Of a stretch of DNA of 36,098 bases, positions 2,074-19,853 are shown one piece after another. This DNA is from Bacteroidaceae bacterium (GTDB lineage Bacteria; Bacteroidota; Bacteroidia; Bacteroidales; Bacteroidaceae): NCBI GenBank assembly GCA_017958545.1, contig JAGDCM010000116.1, positions 1 through 36,098 on the forward strand, in the 5' to 3' direction. Under the pieces are notes generated by a model that was not told where the DNA came from, made no database searches, and was given only the letters and a program-made list of their open reading frames with translations. The number at the start of each line of letters is the position of its first letter. Position 1 is the first letter of the stretch. Position numbers and translations under genes: made by a program.

Positions 2074-2187
2074 CGGAGTACGAGCTGACTACGAGCAGTG
2101 TACGAGTAGAATACGAGTAGACAACGAGAAAACTCGTATACAGCTCGTATTCTCCTCGTAGTCAACTCAAGGCCCACTCGTAGTCCG
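2074..2187. repeat. Phased inverted-repeat array of TACGAG / CTCGTA at 11-bp steps
   Basis: TACGAG starts at 2079, 2090, 2101 and 2112, with a variant AACGAG at 2123. After a 10-bp step the complementary CTCGTA starts at 2133, 2144, 2155 and 2177, with a degenerate unit (CTCAAG) at 2166. All other steps are exactly 11 bp, about one helical turn. The core arms 2087-2117 and 2133-2163 are inverted copies matching at 25 of 31 positions, and the outer units CGGAGTACGAG (2074-2084) and CTCGTAGTCCG (2177-2187) are also complementary. The array lies between the HU terminator and the promoter of the channel-like gene. It could be a cooperative protein-binding array, a cruciform or hairpin, or a copy of a dispersed palindromic repeat. 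The 11-bp period is incompatible with coding. Confidence 0.85.
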
Positions 2188-4598: not shown

Positions 4599-7500
4599 AT
4601 GCAAAACAAAGGATTTGTTAAGTTCTTCGCGCTATTGCTGACGTTGGTATGTCTTTTCTATCTGAGCTTCTCTGTGGTGACAAGCCACTTCGAGAGCAAG
4701 TACGAGGAGATGGTGGCAACGGAAGGCCAGGACGCTGCGGACCGCTACATGGATTCGCTCCAGAACAACAAGGTGTATCTGGGCATCTGGACGCTGAAGG
4801 ACTGCCGTGAGATGGGTATCGGACTGGGTCTGGACCTCAAGGGCGGCATGAACGTTGTGCTCGAGGTGAGCGTACCGGACGTGGTGAAGGCTCTCTCAGA
4901 CCACAAGGAAGAGACAGATGAAACGTTCCGCAAGGCTATCGAGCAGGCTACAAAGGAAGCCACTCAGAGCCAGAAGGACTTTATCACACTTTTCGTCAAG
5001 GACTACAAGGAGCTCGCCCCAGAGCGCTCACTTGCTGAATTGTTTGCTACTCAGCAGTTGCGCGACAAGGTGACCACCAAGAGCACCGACAAGGAAGTGG
5101 AGAACGTGCTGCGCAGCGAAGTGAAGAGTGCCATCGACAACTCTTACAACGTCCTGCGTACCCGTATCGACCGCTTCGGCGTGGTACAGCCCAACATCCA
5201 GGCTCTTGAGGGTCAGGAAGGCCGTATCATGGTGGAAATGCCCGGTATCAAGGAGCCCGAGCGTGTCCGCAAGCTGTTGCAGGGTTCTGCAAACCTCGAA
5301 TTCTGGGAGACCTACTCCACCAGCGAGATTGTTCCTTTCCTCGTGCAGCTCGACCAGAAGTTGGGCGCTGCCGCTTCTGCCGGCGCACTTGACGAGAAGG
5401 CCGACACAACTGCCGTAGCCGAGGAAGAGGTTGCAGCCGACACAGTGAAGGCCGACCTCGCTGCCGCTATCGGCAAGAGCGCTTCTCAGGACACCCAGAG
5501 CACGATGAGCGAAAGTGAACTCGAAGCTGTCCGCAAGCAGCATCCCCTGCTCTCCCGTCTGCAGCTGATGCAGCAGGATATGGGCAGCGTGGTAGGTTAT
5601 GCTTCAAAGCGCGACATGGATGCCATCAGTGCCCTCTTCGAGACACCCGAAGCCAAGGAAGTGCTTCCCTCCGACCTCAGCCTCAAATGGGGTGTGAAGG
5701 GTATGGGCGAAGGCGCTGCTGCCGATATCTACGAACTCTATGCTATCCGCATCACAGAGCGCAACGGTCGTGCTCCTCTGGAGGGCGATGTTGTGACCGA
5801 TGCCAAGGATGAGTTCGACAACAACGGTCGTCCCTGCGTATCCATGAAGATGAATGTGGACGGTGCCCGTCGCTGGGCTGCCCTCACCAAGGCCAACCTC
5901 CACAAGAGCGTAGCCATCGTCCTGGACAACAACGTATACAGCGCTCCCACCGTGCAGAGCGAAATCACCGGTGGTAACAGCCAGATTACAGGTAACTTCA
6001 CCACAGAGGACACCCGCGACCTTGCCAACGTGCTGAAGAGCGGTAAGATGCCCGCTCCCGCAAAGATTGTGAGCGAGGAAATCGTAGGTCCCACACTCGG
6101 TGCCGAGTCCATCCGTCTGGGTATCTGGAGTTGCGTCATCGCCTTCGTAGTACTGATGTTCTACATGATGGCAATGTACGGCATCATTCCCGGTATGGTT
6201 GCCAACTGTGCCCTCCTGCTCAACCTCTTCTTCACCGTCGGCATCCTGACAAGTTTCCAGGCAGCCCTGACGATGAGCGGTATTGCAGGTATGGTATTGA
6301 CACTGGGTATGGCTGTGGATGCCAACGTGCTCATCTACGAGCGCACCAAGGAGGAAATGAAGGCCGGCAAGAAAGTTCGCGAGGCCCTGAAAGCAGGTTA
6401 CGACAACGCATTCTCTGCTATCTTCGACTCCAACCTCACCAGCCTTATCACAGGTATCATCCTCTATAAGTTCGGTACCGGTCCTATCCACGGCTTCGCC
6501 ACGACACTTATCATCGGTATCATCGTGAGTTTCTTCACCGCTGTGTTCCTGACTCGTCTGGTTTACACCACGATGATGGCTCGCGAGAAGTGGCAGAATC
6601 TCACATTCACCAGTCCTATCGGTAAGGCTGTAAGCTTCAAGAACCCTCAGTACAAGTTCATGAGCGCTTACAAGAAGAGCTTCACGGTATTCGTTGCTAT
6701 CTGCATCGTTGCCATCGCAGGTATCGTCACTCGCGGATTCTCCAAGAGTATCGATTTCACCGGTGGTCGTAACTTTATTGTCCTCTTCGAGAACCAGGTT
6801 GAACCCGAGCAGGTGCGCGGCGTTCTGGCCGAAGCCTTCCCCGAGAGCAACACCAGCGCTATCGCACTGGGTGCCGAAGGTAAGACCATTCGTGTCTCCA
6901 CCAACTACCGCATCGATGAGGACGGTATTGAAGTGGACAGCGAAATCGAGCAGCGTCTGTTTGAGGCTCTGAAGAAGGGCGGTGTGCTCTCCGACGACCT
7001 GACACTGGAGAACTTCATCAACCGCGACGAGCGTGCTGGCGGCAGCATCATCTCCTCTCAGAAGGTGGGTCCCGCTGTGGCTGAAGATATCACACGTGGT
7101 GCCATCATAAGTATCATCCTGGCATTCATCGCCATCTTCATCTACATCCTGGCACGTTTCCGCAACGTAGCATTCTCCGTAGGTGCTATCGTGGCTCTCG
7201 GCTTCGACATCATCTTCATTCTGGGTGCATACGCTCTCCTGTGGGGTATCATGCCTTTCTCACTGGAAATCGACCAGACATTCATCGGAGCCATCCTGAC
7301 GGCTATCGGTTACTCCATCAACGATAAGGTGGTGGTATTCGACCGTATCCGCGAGAACATCACACTGTTCCCCAACCGCGACCGTCAGCAGCTCTTCAAC
7401 GACTCTGTTAACAGCACTTTGAACCGTACCATCAACACCTCGGTATCTACCTTCATCGTGCTGGCCGTAATCTTCTTCATCGGTATCTTCGGTGGCGGTG

Positions 7501-7675: not shown

Positions 7676-7747
7676 GCTCCTGTAGTTAAATGGATAGAAC
7701 GGAGGTTTCCTAAACCTTTGATCCGGGTTCGATTCCCGGCGGGAGTA
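7676..7747 (+). tRNA. tRNA-Arg (anticodon CCU)
   Basis: This is a complete 72-nt cloverleaf. The acceptor stem GCTCCTG / CGGGAGT includes two G-U pairs, the anticodon stem is GAGGT / ACCTT with loop TTCCTAA (anticodon CCT, reading AGG), and the T-arm contains GGTTCGATTCC. The discriminator base is A and CCA is not encoded. It sits between secDF and korA. No clear promoter of its own was found, so it may be cut out of a longer transcript. Confidence 0.93.
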
Positions 7748-12131: not shown

Positions 12132-12202
12132 TGGGCTATGGTGTAATGGTAGCACAAGACATTTTGGTCGTCTTAGTTCTGGTTCGAAACCGGATAGCCC
12201 AA
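12132..12202 (+). tRNA. tRNA-Gln (anticodon UUG)
   Basis: This 71-nt cloverleaf has acceptor stem TGGGCTA / TAGCCCA, anticodon loop TTTTGGT (anticodon TTG) and a T-arm containing GGTTCGAAACC. The discriminator base is A and CCA is not encoded. The innermost anticodon-stem pair is an A-C mismatch; the other four pair normally. It has its own -33/-7 promoter and lies 48 bp before the SDR gene. Confidence 0.94.
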
Positions 12203-18133: not shown

Positions 18134-18537
18134 CACACCGGTTATATCTTTCGTTAGGCAGCAATCTCGGGGACAGGAAAAAAAATCTCGAAGATGCCAT
18201 CTCACTCATCAACGATTCCGTGGGACACGTTTGCCGCGTCTCTTCGTTCATTGAGACCGAACCGTGGGGATTCAAGAGCGAACATTCTTTCCTGAATGCC
18301 GCCTGTATGGTAGAGACCGCCCTCACGCCGGAGCAGTGCCTGAATGTCACACAGGAAATAGAGCGAAAGCTCGGACGCACAACCAAGAGTTGTGGCAGCT
18401 ATCAGGATCGCATTATTGATATCGATATGCTTTCCTACGACGATTTGTGTATCGACACCCCGCAGCTCACGCTACCACACCCAAGAATGCACGAACGCGA
18501 GTTCGTCATGATTCCTTTAGAAGAAATTACTCACTGA
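18130..18537 (+). CDS. folK: 2-amino-4-hydroxy-6-hydroxymethyldihydropteridine diphosphokinase
   Basis: This 135-residue HPPK moves diphosphate from ATP to 6-hydroxymethyl-dihydropterin in folate synthesis. [14 protein letters not shown] at ~7-20, ETEPWGF near 40, the RIIDIDML metal motif near 95 and [12 protein letters not shown] near 115-126 are all present, so it is complete though compact. The start is the TTG 18130 within TTGA, overlapping the queA stop; no later start retains LGSNLGDR. Confidence 0.93.
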
Positions 18538-18571
18538 CATGTGGACAGATTTGAGCGCTTGCAACCACATG
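18538..18571 (+). promoter_or_regulatory. Inverted repeat in the folK-metK gap
   Basis: A perfect 7-bp inverted repeat CATGTGG / CCACATG (18538-18544 and 18565-18571) encloses 20 bp that themselves contain the palindrome AGCGCT. It starts directly after the folk stop codon and ends 19 bp before the metK ATG. There is no T-tract, so it is more likely an operator or mRNA structure than a terminator. Confidence 0.4.
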
Positions 18572-18590
18572 AAAAAATGCTAAAAACCAA

Positions 18591-19853
18591 ATGAACAATT
18601 ATCTATTTACATCCGAAAGTGTATCAGAGGGTCACCCCGACAAAGTTGCCGACCAGATCAGTGATGCTGTGTTGGACAAACTCCTGGCCTTCGATCCGAA
18701 TTCCAAAGTAGCTTGCGAAACACTTGTCACCACCGGACAAGTTATTCTCGCCGGTGAAATCAAGACACAGGCGTATGTGGATCTCCAACGCATCGCCCGC
18801 GAAGTAATCAGTCGTATCGGCTACACGAAAAGTGAGTATATGTTCGAGGCCAACTCCTGCGGTGTTCTCTCTGCCATCCACGAACAGAGTGCAGACATCA
18901 ATCAGGGTGTCGAGCGCGCCAAAGTGGAAGAGCAGGGAGCCGGAGACCAGGGAATGATGTTCGGTTACGCAACATCAGAGACGGAGAACTACATGCCACT
19001 CTCTCTCGACCTCGCCCACCGTCTTCTCATCGAACTGGCTGCAATACGCAAGGAAGGCCGTAAGATGACATATCTGCGTCCTGATGCAAAGAGTCAGGTC
19101 ACCGTGGAATACAACGGCGACAACCGTCCCGTACGCATCGACACCATTGTACTTTCCACACAGCACGATGAATTCGACAGCGACGAACGTATGCAGCAGC
19201 AGATTCGTCACGATGTAATCAATATCCTCATTCCGCGCGTCAAGGCAAATATCAAGAACGAAAACATACGGGCTCTTTTTGATTCCGATATCACCTATCA
19301 TGTTAATCCCACCGGGAAATTTGTCATCGGCGGTCCGCATGGCGACACGGGACTCACAGGCCGTAAAATCATCGTTGACACCTACGGAGGAAAGGGTGCT
19401 CACGGCGGTGGTGCATTCTCCGGCAAAGACCCTTCGAAGGTGGATCGCTCGGCAGCGTATGCAGCACGCCACATCGCCAAGAACATGGTGGCCGCAGGAG
19501 TGGCAGACGAGATGCTCGTACAGCTCTCATACGCCATCGGAGTGGCACAGCCCGTTAGCATCTATGTGAATACCTACGGAACGTCACACGTGTCTCTCTC
19601 CGACGGTGAAATCGCCACAAAGATAGGTGAGATATTCACCCTCACGCCCTACCAGATAGAGAAGCGCCTCAAACTGCGCAACCCCATTTACGAAGAGACC
19701 GCAGCATATGGTCACATGGGACGCACTCCGCAAACCGTCACCAAGACGTTTGAGAGTCTCTACAACGGAGGCAGAAAGACCGTTGAGGTGGAACTCTTCA
19801 CATGGGAGAAACTGGATTACGTTGACCGCATCAAAAAGGCATTCGCACTATGA
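18591..19853 (+). CDS. metK: S-adenosylmethionine synthase
   Basis: This 420-residue enzyme makes SAM from methionine and [24 protein letters not shown] lies at ~9-29, [10 protein letters not shown] near 120, and the P-loop-like [23 protein letters not shown] near 270-292. Length fits the somewhat longer Bacteroidetes MetK. SAM feeds MiaB and QueA upstream, which use it directly. The 53-bp gap before it holds an inverted repeat but no recognisable SAM riboswitch. The stop overlaps the next gene (ATGA). Confidence 0.97.

Follow-up and report, generated by a model that had tools for sequence, protein, structure and literature searches.

Dispersed arrays of helix-phased 11-bp units in a Bacteroidaceae genome: candidate platforms for an oligomerising DNA-binding protein

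Introduction

Between an HU gene and a channel-like gene of a Bacteroidaceae bacterium lies an array of hexamers that recur every 11 bp and invert about a common centre, and the question raised by this locus is what such an array is for. It lies near the start of the window, by which we mean the whole stretch of DNA that was analysed (36,098 nt). A first-pass annotation, made from the letters of this DNA, described ten units at 2074-2187, took them for helix-phased sites of one protein forming a control site between the two genes, and noted that their symmetry would also allow a cruciform or RNA hairpin. Bacterial repeats are usually judged by sequence identity, and a family that keeps mainly its motif, phase and place is therefore easily missed. 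Arrays of this kind also lend themselves to distinguishing selection for recognition of the DNA from selection for pairing of a hairpin.

Results

Layout and setting of the array

Reading of the sequence bore out the ten units and their spacing. On the left, TACGAG starts at 2079, 2090, 2101 and 2112 and AACGAG at 2123, within five inner units (2074-2128, + strand); on the right, five inverted inner units (2133-2187, - strand) carry CTCGTA at 2133, 2144, 2155 and 2177 and a degenerate CTCAAG at 2166. All steps are 11 bp, with the sole exception of the 10-bp step across an AAAA centre (2129-2132). A repeat finder reported an inverted repeat (37 nt, 81%; 2082-2118 / 2132-2168) plus four direct copies at 11-bp spacing. 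While the units and their coordinates were right, the extent first assigned to the array was too short by two 11-bp units per arm, and 2074-2187 forms the inner part of a palindrome that measures 158 bp, or possibly 202 bp, and is built of 11-bp units. The whole aligned element (2052-2209, assigned to neither strand) comprises seven 11-bp units, the 4-bp centre and seven inverted units, as delimited by gapless alignments of the nine copies in its own genome and of 31 copies from three genomes. Its two outer left units, CAGAGCCCGTG and CAGAGGCTTAT (2052-2073, + strand), keep a CAGAG half and lack the ACGAG half, and the two outer right units, the complements CAGCGCCTTAC and CAGAGTCTTAC (2188-2209, - strand), are likewise of the CAGAG type. 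An extended element of nine units per arm, the two outermost of which are weakly conserved, spans about 2030-2231.

The array is downstream of the HU gene, a neighbour outside the element (2344-2604, - strand; PF00216, E 1.4e-29), and upstream of the channel-like gene (1-1824, - strand), which is cut by the window start and whose 608 aa within the window gave no Pfam match. A terminator-like stem-loop (12 pairs, then a T-run; 2293-2320, - strand) follows HU ahead of the array; the pattern scan that located it returned 2 sites in the region compared to 1.0 expected in shuffles. A match to TANNTTTG (1888-1895, - strand), which we take to be the Bacteroidota -7 promoter consensus, precedes the start of the channel-like gene by 71 bp and is a candidate promoter element of that gene. 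Since it sits between the terminator-like stem of HU and the possible promoter of the next gene, the array may be untranscribed. Elsewhere in the window are a SAM-II riboswitch (18535-18593, + strand; Rfam RF01726, 58.8 bits) and two tRNA genes (7676-7747 and 12132-12202; RF00005).

Copies within the own genome

Chance is not an adequate explanation for the array, because an exact pattern of three of its units gave 22 matches, some of them overlapping, in the 1.9-Mb draft genome to which the window belongs as one contig (G000; 127 contigs, 78% complete), compared to 0 for the reversed control, and because the predicted fold of the array strand in the window has a z of -7.8 relative to 200 shuffles. 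The 22 matches resolve into nine places, each with a full copy, the HU-site array included, and these nine align over 158 columns with zero gaps. Two divergent copies, C99 (E 2.4e-9) and C32 (E 2e-5), were recovered with a covariance model; in both, GCGAG replaces most ACGAG. Inspection of the nine places placed no copy inside a recognisable gene. Two arrays overlap the 3' ends of genes that we named by eye (lpxB and ribD), and two others are crossed by frames without an assigned identity (287 aa at C30 and 122 aa at C47). The first-pass annotation had favoured a control site local to HU and the channel-like gene, and had reasoned that many copies scattered through the genome would instead point to a dispersed repeat. 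Nine full copies at different loci are what we found, and a control site local to these two genes is not supported.

Repeats with an 8-bp period also occur in this genome. An array of ACRAGTTG adjoins the C19 copy, and at L049 (about 5130-5175) an 8-bp-period array written ACAAGTTG/ACGAGTTG touches the outermost units of the adjoining 11-bp array. Comparable 8-bp inverted arrays are present in six other genus genomes, one of them apparently between acpP and fabF (L275, by eye).

Carriers among relatives and shared sites

A scan of 84,980 species genomes yielded at least 114 stretches, and all listed ones were inspected. Among the matches listed, the same element is present in at least two MAGs, Bacteroidaceae Tb.RUG.95 (G041) and Bacteroidales RUG14814 (G042), whose coordinates equal those of two genus members (G056 and G148, respectively) and which are apparently the same assemblies. 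With 10 of 12 places from Tb.RUG.95 (C18 and C45, which look like other sequence, were left out), all 12 from RUG14814 and the nine own copies, 31 copies were available. Many of the listed stretches are simple tandem repeats in other phyla. The Bacteroidota MAG bin178 has a different palindromic 11-bp array family (unit ACAGGTACGAG) on many contigs, several of its arrays near contig ends (L057, L105, L136, L137, L148). None of 12 viral stretches contains the CAGAG/ACGAG element by eye; two (L178 and L182) have one inverted hexamer each. The exact three-unit pattern was absent from 40 further relatives, a set in which 24 belong to the genus. The covariance model, run with strict filters that may lose weak matches, hit 14 of 139 genus genomes at E <= 0.01, strongly in three (the own genome, G056 and G148), and its weaker matches include arrays that share the layout and differ in their units (TGGCTTACGTC in G084, for example). 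By eye, the matches of model R1 in G018, G157, G016, G104, G089 and G070 are 8-bp-type repeats, not members of the 11-bp family.

Comparison of flanks placed 11 of 14 distinct sites in at least two of the three species, with one shared pair (L249, at a contig end) resting on a single flank, and most arrays therefore stay in place. Orthologues exist for seven of the nine own copies, and the expectation that the array would be conserved at its locus was borne out, both close relatives carrying it at the HU site. At the rpsL/LemA site, RUG14814 has extra genes close by. The cydA site was not counted as shared, the own array (GCGAG type) and that of RUG14814 differing in their distance from the gene; none was seen there in G056. 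The lpxB-site array occurs in the own genome alone, both relatives lacking it. The own LpxB (L049, 5277-6428) ends inside the array, its last residues encoded by the element, and the LpxB of the relatives has a C-terminus of its own, matching residues 1-365 of 383. The empty site shows no clean target-site duplication, and its flank is rearranged.

All 31 copies, trimmed to 158 bp, align without gaps. Copies are nearly but not strictly uniform in length: in RUG14814, L260, L261 and L264 seem to be displaced or shortened by entire units, and the MAFFT alignment of the HU site contains one 11-bp gap.

These distributions bear on the main rival to a role for the host, namely that the arrays are a REP- or MITE-like selfish repeat without host function, the motif of which would be kept by transposase or recombinase reading or by gene-conversion overwriting. 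Dispersed, mostly intergenic, palindromic copies and an lpxB-site array confined to the own genome fit this account. The sharing of 11 of 14 sites, in contrast, makes the family old for a mobile repeat, and the lpxB site, the sole one seen empty, lacks a clean target-site duplication. A search for RAYT-type (PF01797) transposases, whose control matched in 5 of the 14 known genomes, likewise gave nothing in any of the three carriers, although one of these is only 78% complete; G060, another member of the genus, does have such a gene. We regard a selfish repeat as possible, albeit not probable.

The 11-bp unit and its variable letters

The 310 inner units share the consensus YRGWN-WACGAG. Position 1 holds a pyrimidine (C or T) in 97% of units and a purine in about 1%, position 3 is G in 87%, and position 5 (N) carries 0.06 bit, while each letter of the ACGAG core is kept in 92-97%. 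Copies were found via TACGAG patterns, and part of the constancy of the core is therefore ascertainment; the YRGWN half formed no part of the search pattern and is hence free of it. The shape of the hexamer alone would suit targets of DNA modification or restriction, with the arrays serving as methylation-rich marks, given that some methylating defence systems have similar sites, asymmetric and with A as the fifth letter. Such marks would leave the 11-bp phase, the constant unit number, the inverted symmetry and the YRGWN half unexplained, and we consider them a highly improbable explanation.

At orthologous sites, identity of the ACGAG core between the own genome and the two relatives is 0.89-0.92, the same range as between non-orthologous copies, which counts against a protein-binding role. 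Spacer identity between own and relatives' copies is 0.51-0.57 at orthologous sites and 0.52 between non-orthologous copies. Over the whole 158 bp, the own genome and RUG14814 are 0.661 identical at orthologous sites (n=7) and 0.665 at non-orthologous ones (n=101), whereas the adjacent 158-bp flanks retain 0.566 identity at orthologous sites compared to 0.273 for unrelated flanks. Flank identity is expressed here as matches per 158 bp, since the aligned-column measure is inflated by free gaps (0.73 for unrelated flanks). The own genome and Tb.RUG.95 show a faint orthology signal (0.705 vs 0.666 non-orthologous; flanks 0.678), and Tb.RUG.95 and RUG14814 a stronger one (0.802 vs 0.724; flanks 0.588). 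Thus, between the own genome and RUG14814 the variable letters have lost their orthology signal, and motif, phase and place have been kept.

Descent by unit has left little trace in the spacers of the own genome, where identity is 0.489 for the same unit and 0.456 for different units; in Tb.RUG.95 and RUG14814 the values are 0.64-0.66 and 0.53. Likeness of spacers within a genome is likewise 0.65 in each of the two relatives vs 0.54 in the own genome, which points to homogenisation, a process that can by itself keep sequences alike. Saturation of motif-limited positions by point mutation could account for the lost signal. Exchange between arrays, perhaps begun by breaks at the palindrome centres, would fit better, because copies are alike inside Tb.RUG.95 and inside RUG14814, and it may have erased the orthology signal. 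Homogenised spacers in the two relatives, together with an element that has no orthology signal between flanks that have one, are also points in favour of a selfish repeat. The own genome tells against it, as its spacers are hardly homogenised and its hexamers are nonetheless kept.

Pairing of the arms and orientation of neighbouring genes

The symmetry of the element likewise admits a transcribed RNA hairpin (a terminator, an attenuator or an mRNA-stabilising stem), in which pairing would be what matters. The strong fold of the window copy noted above and the long predicted folds in all nine own copies (obtained without a shuffle control) are compatible with it, as is an excess of G-T over A-C mismatches on one strand (170 vs 104), the strand that folds better than the other in Tb.RUG.95 and RUG14814. 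Pairing of the arms is nevertheless at the level of column make-up: across the 31 copies, 69.5% of cells pair compared to 69.1% in shuffles, and the covariation score (0.157 vs 0.152) was reached by 97 of 500 shuffles. In the innermost unit, pairing fails at columns 71/88 in 29 of the 31 copies and at columns 72/87 in 27. Native arms fold with means of -71.7, -64.9 and -67.1 kcal/mol in the three genomes and swapped arms with -74.5, -67.3 and -70.3 kcal/mol, and the other strand agrees. Cells changed on both sides are slightly in excess, in the direction of pairing (124 vs 109.6 in shuffles, a value that 27 of 500 shuffles attained). Within one own element, the two arms also resemble each other more than arms of different elements do, both in their outer units (0.652 vs 0.586) and in the first inner spacer (0.689 vs 0.547), which a pairing role would also lead one to expect. 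No curated Rfam family was found at the array at the gathering threshold.

Orientation of the neighbouring genes weakens a terminator role as well. We classified 13 of the 14 sites by hand (C30, at a contig end, was omitted), because automatic gene calls were noisy, having dropped HU and misread site 4; rsmH, rpsL, ribD and lpxB were named by eye from sequence. Six of the 13 sites lie between divergent genes (phosphatase/unknown, rsmH/PCMD, rpsL/LemA, carbamoyltransferase/DUF4294, clostripain/kinase and patatin/melibiase), six between co-directional genes (HU, ribD, FKBP, an acyltransferase with a tRNA, which is uncertain, lpxB and cytochrome bd) and only one between convergent genes (AcrB-type/TamB). 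The named flanking genes have no common function that we could see, which counts against a protein platform.

Taken together, arm pairing gives no sign of selection, and the cruciform or hairpin that the symmetry seemed to allow is not supported as a selected structure; this favours reading of the DNA unit by unit over an RNA hairpin or cruciform. We consider a transcribed hairpin unlikely.

Phased arrays across the genus

An any-motif scan for arrays (lags 5-60) was applied to 78 stretches (1.30 Mb) from 53 other genus genomes, a sample that is not random, 40 of the stretches (L300-L339) lying around the channel-like gene, and whose gene calls are rough; L377 and L378 were excluded, as their genomes had been picked for matches. 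The commonest period was 22 bp (54 arrays), followed by 7 bp (31), 8 bp (12), 21 bp (4) and 10, 11 and 23 bp (2 each). Period 22 accounts for 30 of 38 palindromic arrays, and block-shuffled stretches gave 0 palindromic arrays at lags 5-22. An 11-, 22- or 44-bp array is present in 29 of the 53 genomes, whereas 248 kb from 16 other families of the order contained one 22-bp array. Intergenic gaps of at least 100 bp, about 103 kb of the 1.30 Mb, hold 42 of the 54 22-bp arrays, and a frame of at least 150 aa crosses 15 of the 54 compared to 365 of 400 random windows. A 9-mer is shared by 21 of 50 same-genome array pairs, 58 of 1381 different-genome pairs and 0 of 50 same-genome pairs of random windows. 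In L337, L357 and L317, CGCCGCACGCGG at 22-bp spacing alternates with palindrome-like ATTGCAAT, an arrangement common to G077 and G053.

Like the 11-bp family, the 22-bp arrays are mostly intergenic, their motif is often genome-specific and their period is a multiple of 11 bp. In contrast to it, they are shorter (mostly 3-4 units), vary in unit number and lie between divergent genes less often than expected (6 vs 11). Since they are shorter and less often divergent, their function may not be that of the 11-bp family. A more speculative reading, which we put forward with considerable doubt, is that helix-phased intergenic arrays of 11 or 22 bp evolve fast throughout the genus, with largely genome-specific motifs matching a protein whose specificity would shift between species; they would then form a genome-wide self-recognition or chromosome-organising code, in which position and phase are kept and letters are rewritten in concert.

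Discussion

The 11-bp family is defined by a motif, an 11-bp phase, a near-constant copy length and retention at orthologous sites. We propose that its members are vertically inherited, dispersed platforms of about ten in-phase sites for a putative oligomerising DNA-binding protein, an explanation to which we give about an even chance. The strongest argument for it is the degenerate pattern of the 11-bp unit, which appears to be the trace of a protein that reads sequence. The original suggestion of helix-phased sites for one protein gains from the strict yet degenerate motif of the 310 inner units and from the 31 gapless copies. Weighing against a platform, in addition to the points raised above, are the TACGAG ascertainment, the lpxB array confined to the own genome, the homogenisation within Tb.RUG.95 and RUG14814, the irregular L260, L261 and L264, and the likeness of arms within an element.

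A platform of this kind might work as follows. About ten YRGWNWACGAG sites, five per arm, would point inwards to the A-rich 4-bp centre. With successive sites about one helical turn apart, subunits could load side by side on one face of the DNA, one subunit or dimer per turn and from both arms, and would meet or close at the A-rich centre as an oligomeric nucleoprotein complex. We infer that a protein reads the array, that its binding would be cooperative and that the complex would act on neighbouring genes or on the nucleoid; an architectural or regulatory role, as an insulator or control platform in intergenic DNA, seems likely in that event. If the arrays are protein platforms, they would represent a new DNA-binding system with one- or two-turn spacing, used across the genus, whose motifs change between species. 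In a literature search that covered few subscription papers, we saw no description of phased arrays with an 11- or 22-bp period in this group.

Several known repeats invite comparison. REP elements are 20-40 bp long with a GTAG or CGTC tag, the GTAG ones often accompanied by a RAYT gene (PMC3733652). They share with the present arrays a dispersed, palindromic nature and differ from them in that the latter are 158-202 bp long, have an 11-bp period and CAGAG-type outer units, and come without PF01797 in any of the three carriers. Of the features of a MITE, inverted arms are present, and no clean target-site duplication was seen at the empty lpxB site, whose flank is rearranged. BrickBuilt, a MITE of Porphyromonas gingivalis, is described as 19 dispersed, species-restricted intergenic copies built of 23-nt tandem direct repeats (1 to 22.8 units) with a leader and tail (PMC4596501). 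Both are dispersed intergenic elements of short-period repeats; ours differ in their 11-bp units, near-constant unit number and inverted arms.

A closer parallel may be found in ParR/parC, the ParMRC system of plasmid R1. The repeats of R1 parC form two sets of five, and platforms of this type are bound by a ribbon-helix-helix or similar oligomeric protein. ParR of R1 requires at least two 11-bp repeats, and the title of a reference cited in the same paper speaks of ten repeats in R1 (PMC9426499). The likeness lies in short repeats that a protein occupies in a row to form a nucleoprotein solenoid, the binder being putative in our case, and the feature of a ParR-type platform that is present here is the helix-phased array itself, with its 11-bp step and ten inner units. 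The parC repeats are direct and lie beside parM on a plasmid, while ours have inverted arms and many chromosomal copies. No par gene was seen among the neighbours looked at, those with Pfam matches being other genes, and a StbA/ParM family search was without a match anywhere, its controls being silent too. Being inverted, dispersed and without a neighbouring par gene, the element would fall outside the parC class; by analogy of layout, parC of R1 would nonetheless be its nearest working likeness.
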